Positions 31,752-46,383 of a stretch of 64,000 nt of DNA are shown here, piece after piece. Each line of letters starts with the position of its first letter. The first letter of the stretch is position 1. This DNA comes from Candidatus Sulfotelmatobacter sp. (GTDB taxonomy: Bacteria > Acidobacteriota > Terriglobia > Terriglobales > Acidobacteriaceae): the NCBI GenBank assembly GCA_036500765.1, contig DASYBM010000011.1, forward strand, positions 248,001 to 312,000, read 5' to 3'. The notes under the pieces were generated by a model. The model worked only from the letters and a program-made list of their open reading frames with translations. It had not been told where the DNA came from and did not search any database. A program made the position numbers and the translations under genes.

Positions 31752-32942
31752 TTAGCTGGCGTATCTTCTCGGTACCCGCTTCGAAATATTGCAGAGGATT
31801 TCGTAGGGAGTGCTGTTTGCCAGCTCAGCGTGCTCCAGTGCGTCAATGCTGAGGCCCTCGGCCGAGCCGAGCAGGATTACCTCGTCTCCCACCGCAATGC
31901 CCGGGATGCCGGTCACATCCACCAGCGTCAGGTCCATCGAGATGCGTCCTACGATCGGCGCGTAGTGTTCGCGAACAATCACGCGGCCGCGATTCGAAAG
32001 CTGGCGGTTGTATCCGTCGGCGTAGCCGACTGGCAGCACGGCAACGCGTGCCGGCGCCTTGGTCACATAAGTTGCGCCGTAGCCCAGCGGCTGATTCGCG
32101 CCGAAATCGCGCAGCGACAGGATGCGCGTCTTCCAGGTCAGGACCGGTTTCACCGGCAGACGCAACGTGCCCCCGCTCACTTCGCGTCCCGCGCGCTGAA
32201 AGGGCAGGAAATAACCGTAAAGCGCGACTCCGGGGCGCACCATGTTGTGCATATTCGGATATGACCAGGTTTCGCGGCGCGAAATTACCGCGGCCGTATT
32301 CGCCATGTGGACGAAGGCCGGCTCCAGCCCAGCGTCGTGCAGCATGCTCCGCGCCGCGTCGAAGCTGCGTTCCTGTTCGGCGACCGAGGGTGCGTCCATG
32401 ATTTCGGAAGATGCCAGATGAGTAGACAGCCCTTCGAGCACCAGATGCTTTGCTGCTTTCAGTGCAGTTAGCACAGCGGGAAGTTGCTCGACCGCGACGC
32501 CGAGACGTCCCATGCCAGTATCGACTTTCAAGTGGAGCGGATGCTGCGCTACGCCCAGCGCGGCGGCTGCGTTGTCCAAAGACTCGATATGCCAGGGCTC
32601 CCACACCGTAGGAGTGAGATGCAAACGAATAATTTCGCTCTCTTCGCCACGCCAGAAGCCGGTCATTAAAAGAATGTTGGCGCGAACTCCCGCCTCGCGC
32701 AGGGGAATGGCCTCGTCGAGCGAAGTCACGCCCAGCCAGCGCGCGCCTTCGGATTCGAGCGCGCGGGAACACTCGACCGCTCCATGGCCGTAAGCGTCAG
32801 CTTTCACGACCGCGCATATCGTCACGTTCGCTCCCACGTGCTGCTGCACCGTGCGGAAGTTTTGCCGCAACGTGTTCAGCGAAACTTCCGCCCAGGTTGG
32901 GCGCGTCGCCACGCGGCTCAGGGTTTCTGCTGTGGTCGCCAC
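31752..32942 (-). CDS. alr: Alanine racemase
   Basis: PLP enzyme (396 residues) producing D-alanine for peptidoglycan. The PLP lysine is in CAVVKADAYGHG (about residue 48), the second catalytic base, tyrosine, in QPLGYGATYVT, and the conserved VGRISMDLTLVDVT lies near the C-terminus. Fold-type III barrel followed by a beta domain; normal length. The start is GTG, and a TATAAT box lies seven bases upstream, so the mRNA is probably leaderless. Nothing in the neighbourhood links it to a cell-wall operon. Confidence 0.96.
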   Translation of the reverse strand: MATTAETLSRVATRPTWAEVSLNTLRQNFRTVQQHVGANVTICAVVKADAYGHGAVECSRALESEGARWLGVTSLDEAIPLREAGVRANILLMTGFWRGEESEIIRLHLTPTVWEPWHIESLDNAAAALGVAQHPLHLKVDTGMGRLGVAVEQLPAVLTALKAAKHLVLEGLSTHLASSEIMDAPSVAEQERSFDAARSMLHDAGLEPAFVHMANTAAVISRRETWSYPNMHNMVRPGVALYGYFLPFQRAGREVSGGTLRLPVKPVLTWKTRILSLRDFGANQPLGYGATYVTKAPARVAVLPVGYADGYNRQLSNRGRVIVREHYAPIVGRISMDLTLVDVTGIPGIAVGDEVILLGSAEGLSIDALEHAELANSTPYEILCNISKRVPRRYAS

Positions 32943-32949
32943 TTTCGCG

Positions 32950-32955
32950 ATTATA
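32950..32955 (-). promoter_or_regulatory. -10 box of alr (leaderless arrangement)
   Basis: TATAAT on the minus strand, with seven bases between it and the GTG start at 32942. Transcription would begin at or next to the start codon. Confidence 0.5.
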
Positions 32956-33141
32956 GCGGCAGCAGACTCGGAGCTGAGGTTACGCTGGGGCTACTCCCCG
33001 GAGCGCTCTGCGCGCGCTATTTGTAACGCATCATGCCCCTCGCCCTCTCTCGCCGTGTGGCGGCGAGGACGCCGCCACAACCGCCCTGATCACTGTCGAA
33101 GGGACAGCCGCCCGGGATGGCAGCGCTACGCTCTTGACTGC

Positions 33142-33913
33142 CTAATTTCCTCCGAGGAAAAAATTAACCGTGACTTGCGTCTCCACTTCGATGGCCTGGT
33201 TATTCAGGATGTACGGGCGGTAGCGCCATTGGCTGACGGCGTCGATTGCCGCTGGCACCAGCATCGGATGGCCCGATACCACCCGCAGGTTCTCGATCGT
33301 TCCCCGCCTTGCCGATGACTGCCGCGAGAATCACCGATCCCTGGATGCGCGCGCTTTTCGCCAGCGGAGGATAGATTGGCTGCACGCGGCGAATCAGGCT
33401 GCCCTCCATCATGCTCGAAGTGCGGAAGGTGGGAACAACTCCTGTTGGCCGCACTGGGGCTACAACGTTGTTTCCGCCGAAATTTGGAATTGCGGGACCA
33501 TTTCCCGCTCCTGGCGAAAGTCCGGGCCCGACCCCGACTCCGGGAGGCTCTGGCGAAGGTTCATCGTCTCCCCGTCCGATGACGATGGGCATCTGGGCTG
33601 GCGGCATCAATGGGTGCCAGAGGGCGGGTTGTGTCGTACTGCCAACATGTGGCCGCGGCGACGGCGACGGGTGCGGTGCTCCCGGAGATCCCATACTCAC
33701 CGGAGTCGATACAACTCTGGCTACTGCCGGCAGTCCCACCGTCCTCCAAAGCGGCAGCAAGAGCAGGCAAACAATGGCCAGCACCTGTACTCCGAACGAA
33801 ATTAGCGTGGTCCATTTGCGGTGAGTGCGCTGCGACCAGGATGTTTCCAGCATGCTATCGGCAAACATTTTTTCTTCAAATGCGTTCTCCTCGAATGCAG
33901 CTTCTTCAACCAT
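33142..33913 (-). pseudogene. TonB-like energy-transducing protein, disrupted by a one-base frameshift
   Basis: Periplasm-spanning protein with a cytoplasmic N-terminus, a single membrane helix (LISFGVQVLAIVCLLLLPLW), a proline/glycine-rich linker and a TonB C-terminal domain. The uninterrupted frame reads SARIQGSVILAAVIGKAGN and then runs into non-family sequence up to a stop at 33200. Moving by one base at about 33298-33304 restores TIENLRVVSGHPML, DAVSQWRYRPYILN and ETQVTVNFFLGGN, ending at the TAG at 33142. One extra base in GGGGAACG explains it. It could be a real mutation, a sequencing error or, less likely, programmed frameshifting. The start at 33913 has GGAGG five bases upstream. It lies downstream of ompH, after a terminator. 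Confidence 0.85.
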
Positions 33914-38369: not shown

Positions 38370-40607
38370 TCATTGGGATGGCTTGGATAACTCTACATCA
38401 ACCAAGACGGAATAAAACGTGGCCGAGTTGCCCATGTCGGTAAGTTTTTCTGAGGTGAGGGCATTAATACTCTGGAAGCCAGGGGTCATTTTGGCCCAAT
38501 TGAGGGTGGCGGACACGACTCCGGGTTGGACCTTGCCATCGACTTTCGCCTTCAATACGATGTCGCCACGGTCGTTGAAGACCCGGACCTCGTCGCCATC
38601 GGCAATGCCGCGGGCGCCGGCATCCGCCGAACTGATCTCGAGAAGACCCGGCTCTTCCATTTCCTGAACCGACGGCACATTGGTGAACGTGGAATTGAGA
38701 AAGTTATCGGCCTTCCGCGCCAGTAGCTCCAGTGGGAGGGTATGATCCTTTTTCCCATGCCGCGACTCAGTAGGAGGAATAAAGTCGGCGACTGGATCAA
38801 GCCCCAAAGCCTTCACCGCCTCGCTGTAAAGCTCCGCCTTCCCCGAGGCAGTTCTAAAATTTCCGTAAGCAAAGGGAAGAAAAGCTTCTGCTTGTGCTGG
38901 CAAAGCGGCAGCTTGCCCTGAGCGAATTCGAAGCGGCTGCCCAACGGAGCGAAGCTCCTCGCCGGAAGCCTGCCGAGTGGCGGAAGCCCCGAATCCCAAC
39001 CGCACCGGGCCCTGTTCCAACCGCTTGCGGCTCATCCCCTCCATCAACGGATTCTTCGACTCCAGAGCTGAGTCGATCATCTCGTCGACGCTCTCTTGAA
39101 AGCACTCCTCTTCAAATCCCATCCGCTCCGCCAGCCCGCGGAACAGTTCCACATTTGATCGGCACTCGCCCAGCGGCTCGATGGCCTGATTCGAGACTTG
39201 CAGGTAATAATGCCCGTAGCCCTTTTGCAAATCTTTGTGCTCGAAGAATGTGGTCGCTGGCAGCACGACATCGGCATAGTCGGTGGTGTCGGTTAGAAAT
39301 TGCTCGTGCACCACGGTAAACAGATCCGGCCGCAACAGCCCGCGGACCACTTCATTATGCTCCGGACAAACCGCCGCTGGATTGCAGTTGTAAACAAACA
39401 AGGCCTTCACCGGCGGATCATTCCCTGTGTTGAGCACGCGTCCCAACTTGACCATATTGACGGTTCGCGCTTCCCGCCCCAGCGCAGTGTGCATCAGATC
39501 GGGACGCTTTAATCCTTCAGTGTTCAGATCCACCGCTCCGCTCACAGACATCTGCAACCCGCCGCCGATTTCTTTCCATGATCCAGTGATGCAGGGCAGC
39601 ATGCAGATTGCCCGCGTCGCCATACCGCCGCCTTCCGAGCGCTGCACGCCATAGTTCAGGCGAATTACCGAAGGTCTTACTGCGGCATACTCCCGCGCCA
39701 GCCTGCGAATATCGTCAGCCGCGATCCCCGTCCATTGCTCGACACGCTCCGGTGAATACTCCTTCACCTTCTCCTGCAATTGCTCGAAGCCCAGCGTGTA
39801 TTTAGAAACATAATCGGCGTCGTGCAGATTTTCGCCGATGATGACGTGCATCATGCCCAGCGCCAGCGCCGCGTCCGTTCCCGGATTGATGGGCAAATAC
39901 CAGTCGGCGCACTCTGCGGTCCGTGTGCGATAGGGATCGATCACCACAAGCTTTGCGCCATTGCGCCGCGCCTCGGCGATGAACGGCCACAAATGAACGT
40001 TATTGCCGTGGATGTTCGACGCCCACGCAATGATGTATTTGGAATGCCGAAACTGCTCCGGCTCAGTGCCAAGCTTCACGCCGTAAACAGATTTCAGCCC
40101 CGCTTCGCCGGCCGCCGAACAGATCGTCCGATCAAGCTGCGAAGCGCCGAGCCGGTGAAAAAATCGCCGGTCCATGGAAGCGCTATTGAGCGCTCCCAAA
40201 GTACCGCCATAGGAATAGGGCAGGATCGCCTCACTGCCGAACTCGCGAGTAATCGCGCGAAAGCGCAAGGCGATCTCATCGAGGGCCTCGTCCCACGAAA
40301 TCCGCTCCCAGGCGTGTGTCGCACTTGCCTGTGTGGGGACAGCCGCCCTCGGCTGTCCATGCGGAGCGAAGCTCCGCTGCCCCGCCGCCGGCCCCTTAGC
40401 CGCGATCCGTCGCATCGGATACATCACCCGATCCGGCGAATACACCCGATCCAGATATTTCGCCACCTTCGCGCACAAAAACCCGCGCGTCACAGGATGT
40501 TCCGGGTCCCCCTGAATCCGCGTCGCCCGCCCATCCTGCACGGTAATCAGCACCCCGCAAGCATCCGGGCAATCGTGTGGACACGCGGCATGAATTACCT
40601 GCTTCAT
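38370..40607 (-). CDS. Molybdopterin-dependent oxidoreductase (DMSO reductase superfamily)
   Basis: A 745-residue enzyme carrying bis-MGD molybdenum and one [4Fe-4S] cluster. The cluster ligands are in ACPHDCPDACGV and GFLCAK near the N-terminus; the molybdopterin domains follow (GTDAALALGMMHVI, FVYNCNPAAVCPEHN), with a C-terminal dinucleotide-binding domain (DEVRVFNDRGDIVLKAKV). No twin-arginine signal, so probably cytoplasmic. The ATG at 40607 fits the family; the frame extends 15 codons upstream. Two stretches look inserted relative to the family: about residues 83-112 and about 540-575, both coded by palindromic repeat sequence. The substrate is unknown; formate or polysulfide-type assignments cannot be made. 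Confidence 0.88.
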   Translation of the reverse strand: MKQVIHAACPHDCPDACGVLITVQDGRATRIQGDPEHPVTRGFLCAKVAKYLDRVYSPDRVMYPMRRIAAKGPAAGQRSFAPHGQPRAAVPTQASATHAWERISWDEALDEIALRFRAITREFGSEAILPYSYGGTLGALNSASMDRRFFHRLGASQLDRTICSAAGEAGLKSVYGVKLGTEPEQFRHSKYIIAWASNIHGNNVHLWPFIAEARRNGAKLVVIDPYRTRTAECADWYLPINPGTDAALALGMMHVIIGENLHDADYVSKYTLGFEQLQEKVKEYSPERVEQWTGIAADDIRRLAREYAAVRPSVIRLNYGVQRSEGGGMATRAICMLPCITGSWKEIGGGLQMSVSGAVDLNTEGLKRPDLMHTALGREARTVNMVKLGRVLNTGNDPPVKALFVYNCNPAAVCPEHNEVVRGLLRPDLFTVVHEQFLTDTTDYADVVLPATTFFEHKDLQKGYGHYYLQVSNQAIEPLGECRSNVELFRGLAERMGFEEECFQESVDEMIDSALESKNPLMEGMSRKRLEQGPVRLGFGASATRQASGEELRSVGQPLRIRSGQAAALPAQAEAFLPFAYGNFRTASGKAELYSEAVKALGLDPVADFIPPTESRHGKKDHTLPLELLARKADNFLNSTFTNVPSVQEMEEPGLLEISSADAGARGIADGDEVRVFNDRGDIVLKAKVDGKVQPGVVSATLNWAKMTPGFQSINALTSEKLTDMGNSATFYSVLVDVELSKPSQ
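38946..38958. repeat. Palindrome inside the oxidoreductase gene
   Basis: GGAGCgaaGCTCC lies in a stretch (about 38900-38990) that encodes an apparent in-frame insertion. The same core occurs at 40362-40376 in the second apparent insertion. Confidence 0.5.
40337..40377. repeat. Double palindrome inside the oxidoreductase gene
   Basis: GGACAGCCG and CGGCTGTCC (40337-40358) form a perfect 9-bp stem; GCGGAGCgaaGCTCCGC (40361-40377) a perfect 7-bp stem. The sequence resembles intergenic repeats elsewhere in the window (GGACAGCCGCCC also at 33104-33115) rather than protein-coding sequence. Confidence 0.6.
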
Positions 40608-42182: not shown

Positions 42183-42283
42183 GAGATATCAGTCTAGCAG
42201 CGAAGTTAGTAACGCCGGCGTCCCGCCGGCTGTTGCGGGGGCGTCTCGCCCACGCACCGGAGAGTCAGGAAAATGCAAACAGA

Positions 42284-44820: not shown

Positions 44821-44931
44821 TGAATCGCCCGAAGCGAGCTGTGATTTCTTCTCGAAACTCCCTAACCTCTTGTCATCCTGAGCGCAGCCGCTTTTCAGGC
44901 GGAGCGAACGATCTCCCGCTTATCTGCTCTC

Positions 44932-46256: not shown

Positions 46257-46270
46257 CCGCCCTTACATAA

Positions 46271-46383
46271 ACCTTTGTCATCCTGAGCGGCGTTCTTTGC
46301 CGCGAGGGATCTATGCATTTGGCTCGGTCAAACAAAATGCATAGATCCTTCGGCGCCACAGAACGCCCGCCTCAGGATGACAA
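46271..46383. repeat. Long palindromic repeat (TTTGTCATCCTGAG ends)
   Basis: A 113-bp inverted repeat. Outer arms CTTTGTCATCCTGAG and its complement, inner arms GGATCTATGCATTT and its complement; intermediate bases also match well. It fills the space between two convergent genes and can act as a terminator on both strands. The GTCATCCTGAGCG end occurs also near 44872 and, altered, near 44315, so this is a dispersed family. Confidence 0.8.

Follow-up and report, generated by a model that had tools for sequence, protein, structure and literature searches.

A molybdopterin oxidoreductase gene from a Candidatus Sulfotelmatobacter genome, that of a soil acidobacterium, carries two REP-type elements, one intact and one decayed, of a family built from a GTGG tag, a hairpin and a second hairpin over about 49 nt. 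The gene lies in the window, the whole 64,000-nucleotide stretch of DNA that we analysed, which comes from a genome of 5.04 Mb. It is very likely that REP-type elements inserted into two linkers of the oxidoreductase, and that such elements have arrived repeatedly at the same linkers across the genus.

Two REP-type elements in an oxidoreductase

The oxidoreductase contains the Pfam domains Molybdop_Fe4S4, Molybdopterin and Molydop_binding. Its nearest relatives, with 84 and 83% identity, come from MAGs named Acidobacteriaceae or Candidatus Sulfotelmatobacter. The best solved chain is acetylene hydratase (2e7z), and others are formate dehydrogenases and DMSO reductases. The gene and the elements within it are located as follows.

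38373–40607, minus strand: molybdopterin oxidoreductase (DMSO reductase superfamily), 745 aa, ATG at 40607
40331–40380, plus strand: site 1, intact REP-like element of the ~49-nt type, read antisense in the oxidoreductase gene as ...RSFAPHGQPRAAVPTQ
40337–40358, plus strand: site 1 hairpin 1, GGACAGCCG CCCT CGGCTGTCC, nine pairs, preceded by the GTGG tag
40361–40377, plus strand: site 1 hairpin 2, a variable stem around GCGAAGC
38893–38958, plus strand: site 2, decayed REP with its 3' arm CGGCTGCCC at 38934–38942 and hairpin 2 at 38946–38958
38910–38933, plus strand: a different repeat (AGCTTGCCCTGAGCGAATTCGAA...), nested where the site 2 REP has its hairpin 1

The palindromes that the first-pass annotation had reported in this gene are indeed there: GGAGCGAAGCTCC is present at 38946–38958 and 40363–40375, and GGACAGCCGCCCTCGGCTGTCC at 40337–40358, where 100 shuffles gave an expectation of 0. 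A covariance model (R1; 49 nt, from 19 copies in the same genome, both window copies excluded) matches site 1, which was not used in building it, with 66.9 bits and an E-value of 7.5e-14. The site 1 element folds into two hairpins at -20.2 kcal/mol (z -6.5). At site 2 the model misses the window copy yet matches the orthologues there, and the decayed element can be aligned to L040, where the REP at this position is intact. As it stands, site 2 folds no better than shuffled sequences (z 1.18).

Both segments are insertions relative to the family, as had been proposed from the sequence, since the outgroups (L072–L077) do not have them; the homologue alignment also shows that their protein sequence is not conserved. 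Site 1 spans 41 codons in the window and 17–18 in the outgroups, and site 2 spans 54 and 22–25, respectively. The gains, about 24 residues at site 1 and 30 at site 2, are close to the 28 and 35 noted initially. An AlphaFold2 model of the oxidoreductase from 36 sequences (35 loci and the window) has a mean pLDDT of 87. A structure model had been suggested as a check on the insert sites, and the only segments with pLDDT below 50, residues 78–88 and 540–571, fall within the two insert regions. The two loops are thus predicted with low confidence and are probably flexible.

The first-pass annotation also placed a further copy of the repeat block in non-coding DNA at 33104. The block itself, GGACAGCCGCCC, is found at 33102–33113, but it lacks a GTGG tag, a paired arm and a model match. 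Its non-coding location is plausible because the only ORF of at least 80 aa covering the spot, a 155-aa plus-strand ORF (32851–33318), shares its sequence in part with a longer ORF on the minus strand, whose end it overlaps.

A repeat family of the genus

A search of the genome for the longer palindrome, allowing up to 3 mismatches, gave 52 matches (a few palindromic places being scored on both strands) and 0 for a reversed control, so the palindrome is repeated as the first reading had supposed. The 13-nt core alone was found 4 times in the window with up to 2 mismatches, which is not above the 3.2 expected by chance. The core palindrome with its GTGG tag is present in 37 of 37 genomes of the same genus, this one included, and in 0 of 24 genomes of other genera. 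The covariance model found at least 128 matches in the genome at E-values up to 1, a lower bound since the first look scored 150 of 3675 candidates; the best E-values are as low as 1e-15.

We examined 90 copies, namely the 92 best model matches minus C4:1077347, which is the second REP of UvrC, and C13:62588. A simple tagged hairpin is present in 73 of them (GTGG in 64, GTAG in 5, GCGG in 2 and GCAG in 2) and absent from 17; the scan admitted only tags of the form G[TC][AG]G. Among these 73 copies the hairpin 1 stem occurs in several perfect versions, with GGACAGCCG in 35, GGACGGACG in 15 and GGACGGGCG in 10. In hairpin 2, the 19 own-genome copies show two-sided changes at 6 of 7 pairs and one-sided (G-U) changes at none. 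Covariation of this kind, free of one-sided intermediates, may fit pairing of DNA strands better than pairing in RNA. Close pairs among the 100 best matches are all head-to-head with GTGG outwards (7 of 7; 0.3 pairs expected by chance). Sixty-six of the 90 copies lie outside Pfam-recognised genes, although some of these may sit in genes that have no Pfam match. The family thus shows the structural features of the REP class: many palindromes of 20–60 nt, an unpaired 5' tag, inverted dimers and a mostly extragenic location.

Some copies contain another repeat. Four genome copies span 73 nt instead of 49, and the three that were inspected (L238, L254 and L269) hold a 24-nt CCTTCGACAAGCTCAGGGCAGGCT-like repeat, equal to eight codons, in the loop of hairpin 1. 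The nested repeat in L266 is arranged as at site 2 of the window, and those in L238, L254 and L269 have the opposite orientation. A search for the repeat class CCTGAGCN3-6CGAAGG gave 88 copies in the genome and 2 in the reversed control.

In-frame capture in other genes

The first-pass annotation had proposed that repeats enter genes while keeping the reading frame. This holds well beyond the oxidoreductase, as about 21 further genes of the genome contain an in-frame REP. In total, about 24 of the 90 copies lie in frame inside 22 Pfam-recognised genes, 7 of which, as a raw count, process DNA. Among the 22 are the genes for RecG, UvrC, UvrD/PcrA, Lhr (two copies), an ImuB-like polymerase, a RecA-like protein and FtsK. 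The others encode the oxidoreductase, LpxB (two copies), a DUF255 protein, an M28/TFR peptidase, an aminotransferase, an ABC exporter, an agmatine-deiminase-like protein, DUF1385, an aconitase-family protein, a FAD-linked oxidase, a hydantoinase, a phage portal protein, a PLP enzyme, an ABC ATPase and a GHMP kinase. Gene names that go beyond those of Pfam are our interpretation. In many genes Pfam domains flank the insert in one frame.

A codon-usage score helped to choose the genic copies, and the assignment was based finally on Pfam. The REPs of L240 and L242 lie near the N terminus and are less certain, as a start-site error is possible. L297, L218, L241, L257 and L276 were considered and not counted, the Pfam match being absent; nor were L236, L217, L253 and L283, which resemble N-terminal extensions.

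The inserts use several frames, with peptides such as MWGQPPSAV, VGTAALG or VGTDAFVRP, CGDSRPRL and LRSAGQPRAAVPT, among others; predicted insert peptides also include GQPRAAVPTQ and VGTDAFVRPAER. The REP consensus is free of stop codons in all six frames, and replacement of GTGG by GTAG closes one of them. All six frames are open in 63 of the 90 copies, compared with about 31 expected from shuffles. The stop-free share of the genic copies (18 of 24) is hardly higher than that of the remaining copies (45 of 66). Because the two rates are similar, freedom from stops is a property of the family and not the result of selection within genes.

Recurrence at the same linkers

In 48 oxidoreductase sources the model gave 28 matches with E-values of at most 1e-3. 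Twenty-four are at the two sites, and the remaining four are just upstream of the oxidoreductase gene in L041 and L042. About ten stems, most of them perfect, are seen at site 1 across the genus, and both orientations occur; in L041, L056 and L100 two different REPs stand in tandem there. On a gene tree built without the insert columns, the minimum number of changes in orientation or absence is 6 at each site, and the stem type changes at least 10 times among 18 site-1 carriers. The alignment holds 43 of 79 loci; the partial rows L069, L070 and L100 were excluded from the tree. States were assigned by hand, as the simple hairpin scan misses decayed or interrupted copies (site 2 of the window, L043, L044 and L046), and unclear rows were left unscored (L051, L057, L059, L089 and L091 at site 1; L043, L045, L046, L055, L058, L059, L080, L089 and L091 at site 2). 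L048 was scored R at site 1 by eye, whereas the scan's best hairpin there is in the F direction. Simple inheritance accounts for some of the pattern, because all 10 oxidoreductase rows of the window's clade have the site 1 REP in the same orientation.

In RecG, 17 of 30 loci have a REP in the loop that precedes the EPDVLVMTATP motif (E at most 0.01). Scored as sense, antisense or none, the loop requires at least 9 changes over 25 rows, with L313, L328, L329 and L332 left unscored as unclear. Shuffled labels gave a mean of 12.1 changes and a lowest value of 8, so the observed 9 are few enough for some inheritance too. The sisters L322/L323 (support 100) and L324/L326 (support 99) carry the REP in opposite orientations, and the strongly supported sisters L325/L327 differ in its presence. 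Because well-supported RecG sister species differ in orientation, the aligned sequences argue that REP insertion recurred in the same loops.

Of 30 UvrC loci, 17 have a REP or two inverted REPs in the linker (E at most 1e-3), and the first copy is always in one frame. UvrC linkers lacking a REP (L345, L347, L348, L349 and L360) encode peptides like CHPERSEGSM...SARKERGPQDD. These peptides apparently reflect inverted copies of a CATCCTGAGCGAAGCGAAGGA repeat, so that a different class of repeat occupies the position that REPs take elsewhere.

Mobilization and the role of the linkers

The genome has 7 Y1 transposase genes, and such genes are present in 39 of 41 genomes of the genus. We scanned the flanks of the genus Y1 genes for tagged hairpins as a sign of RAYT linkage and rejected this linkage, since this REP flanks none of the genes examined. 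In the 106 Y1-centred loci, which overlap in part, no REP of the family stands beside the Y1 gene; it occurs at only two places in the fetched flanks, about 0.8 and 1.2 kb away. Near two of this genome's Y1 genes, those of L036 and L037, there are other GTGTGG/GTGTAG hairpins with a similar tag and different stems. In L167, L175 and L037, inverted GTGG/GTAG-tagged hairpins of other families lie on both sides of the Y1 gene or after it. By this arrangement these units can be classed as REPtron-like, in Acidobacteria.

Most likely, a HUH (Y1) transposase would act in trans, moving or copying the REP in the form of a single-stranded hairpin, although no Y1 gene examined has this REP at its flank. 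REPs would have entered the oxidoreductase at two surface linkers, where they persisted by keeping the frame and adding no stop codon, and the same capture would account for the copies in the other genes. Across the genus the linkers may be tolerated docking places at which REPs reappear with changing stem and orientation, with selection merely tolerating the added residues. In a more speculative form, which we hold only tentatively, the linkers could be standing docking sites. REPs might arrive in, beside or on earlier REPs in either orientation, with the 24-bp, frame-neutral repeat then entering the hairpin loop. Repeated arrival in linkers would be possible because tagged hairpins free of stops pass through coding DNA unharmed. 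If this is true, mobile hairpins provide a continuous supply of new linker sequence, most of all to proteins of DNA repair.

Alternatively, each gene could have received its REP only once, in an ancestor, and the present variety could have arisen through drift and gene conversion among REPs. The common orientation at site 1 within the window's clade and the common frame of the UvrC inserts are consistent with such a history, and stem swaps such as that between L038 and L079 are explicable by conversion. Conversion is expected to preserve orientation, however, and orientation differs between RecG sisters and at both oxidoreductase sites; the tandem pairs of different REPs at site 1 also speak against it. 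We consider a single insertion unlikely overall, and for RecG it is already disfavoured.

Usefulness of the added residues, either as linkers recruited for a function or through an mRNA hairpin that regulates translation, seems to us distinctly improbable. The loops have been refilled repeatedly, and the REP-bearing genes that process DNA (the 7 of 22) recall those of other phyla in passages of PMC3733652. But the peptides vary between species in frame, strand and sequence, none is conserved, and the insert is absent from some species (L327, L355 and L049). That the elements are chance palindromes or products of wrong gene models is barely conceivable and is already refuted for the main cases: the 13-nt core is no more frequent in the window than chance allows when mismatches are permitted, but the family model reaches E-values down to 1e-15, and the flanking Pfam domains keep one frame across the insert in many genes.

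Relation to known repeats

Rickettsia palindromic elements (RPEs) were reportedly described by Ogata in 2000 and 2002 as lying in frame in unrelated genes. The RPE analogy drawn in the first-pass annotation is fair in effect, while by structure the elements are REPs. As far as the sections of PMC10969869 on RPEs go, both families consist of palindromes that sit in frame within unrelated genes and add tens of residues in tolerated regions. By description, RPEs are about 150 bp long with a conserved peptide and belong to Rickettsia, whereas the present family is about 49 nt long and uses several frames. In-frame insertion in unrelated genes is thus common to both; a unit of ~150 bp with one conserved peptide was not found here.

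A close parallel is in Di Nocera et al. (2013; PMC3733652), parts of which report GTAG and CGTC REPs inside genes, many of them replication or repair genes. In recB, two Xanthomonas species carry different REPs at about the same position, and tyrosine transposases of Acidobacteria are described there with flanking inverted repeats. The GTAG REPs in those parts resemble our family in the unpaired GTAG/GTGG tag, the 9-bp stem, the short loop and the head-to-head dimers. They are likewise mostly intergenic; some lie in frame within genes, which in many cases are repair genes. Our family differs in belonging to an acidobacterial genus, in its stop-free GTGG tag in place of GTAG, in its covarying second hairpin, in that a transposase gene was not found beside it, and in its genus-wide recurrence at the same linkers. 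Portions of PMC8266576 and PMC6006769 deal with TnpA-REP recognition, GTGG-tagged REPs and class 3 proteins in Acidobacteria. REPINs with RAYT/TnpA-REP, as outlined in PMC8266576, share with our family the inverted pairs of tagged hairpins and the presence of Y1 HUH transposases in the genome. In a REPtron the RAYT gene is flanked by its own REP, a linkage not found for this family at the Y1-centred loci.

In-frame REPs outside Rickettsia, also in repair genes, are therefore already known from 2013, going by the same parts of PMC3733652. In the open-access literature we found no paper on palindromes in Sulfotelmatobacter and none joining REP elements with uvrC or recG. The novelty appears to lie in the acidobacterial family itself, in the repeated occupation of the same linkers by REPs whose stem and orientation change, and in the nesting of a second repeat. 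Short mobile-type DNA repeatedly rewrites protein linkers in one genus, and sister species provide natural before/after pairs. The bias of intragenic REPs towards DNA-repair genes appears to recur in another phylum, a puzzle that can now be tested as tolerant linkers versus an effect on repair.

Other repeats in the window

Between pyrH and tsf (42205–42265), a plus-strand ORF encodes NAGVPPAVAGASRPRTGES, which is nearly identical to a peptide in the N-terminal part of the Y1 transposase ORF in L035; this stretch is probably another transposase-associated repeat. The sequence TGTCATCCTGAGCG occurs twice, at 44863–44884 and 46268–46289, and is part of another interspersed repeat.
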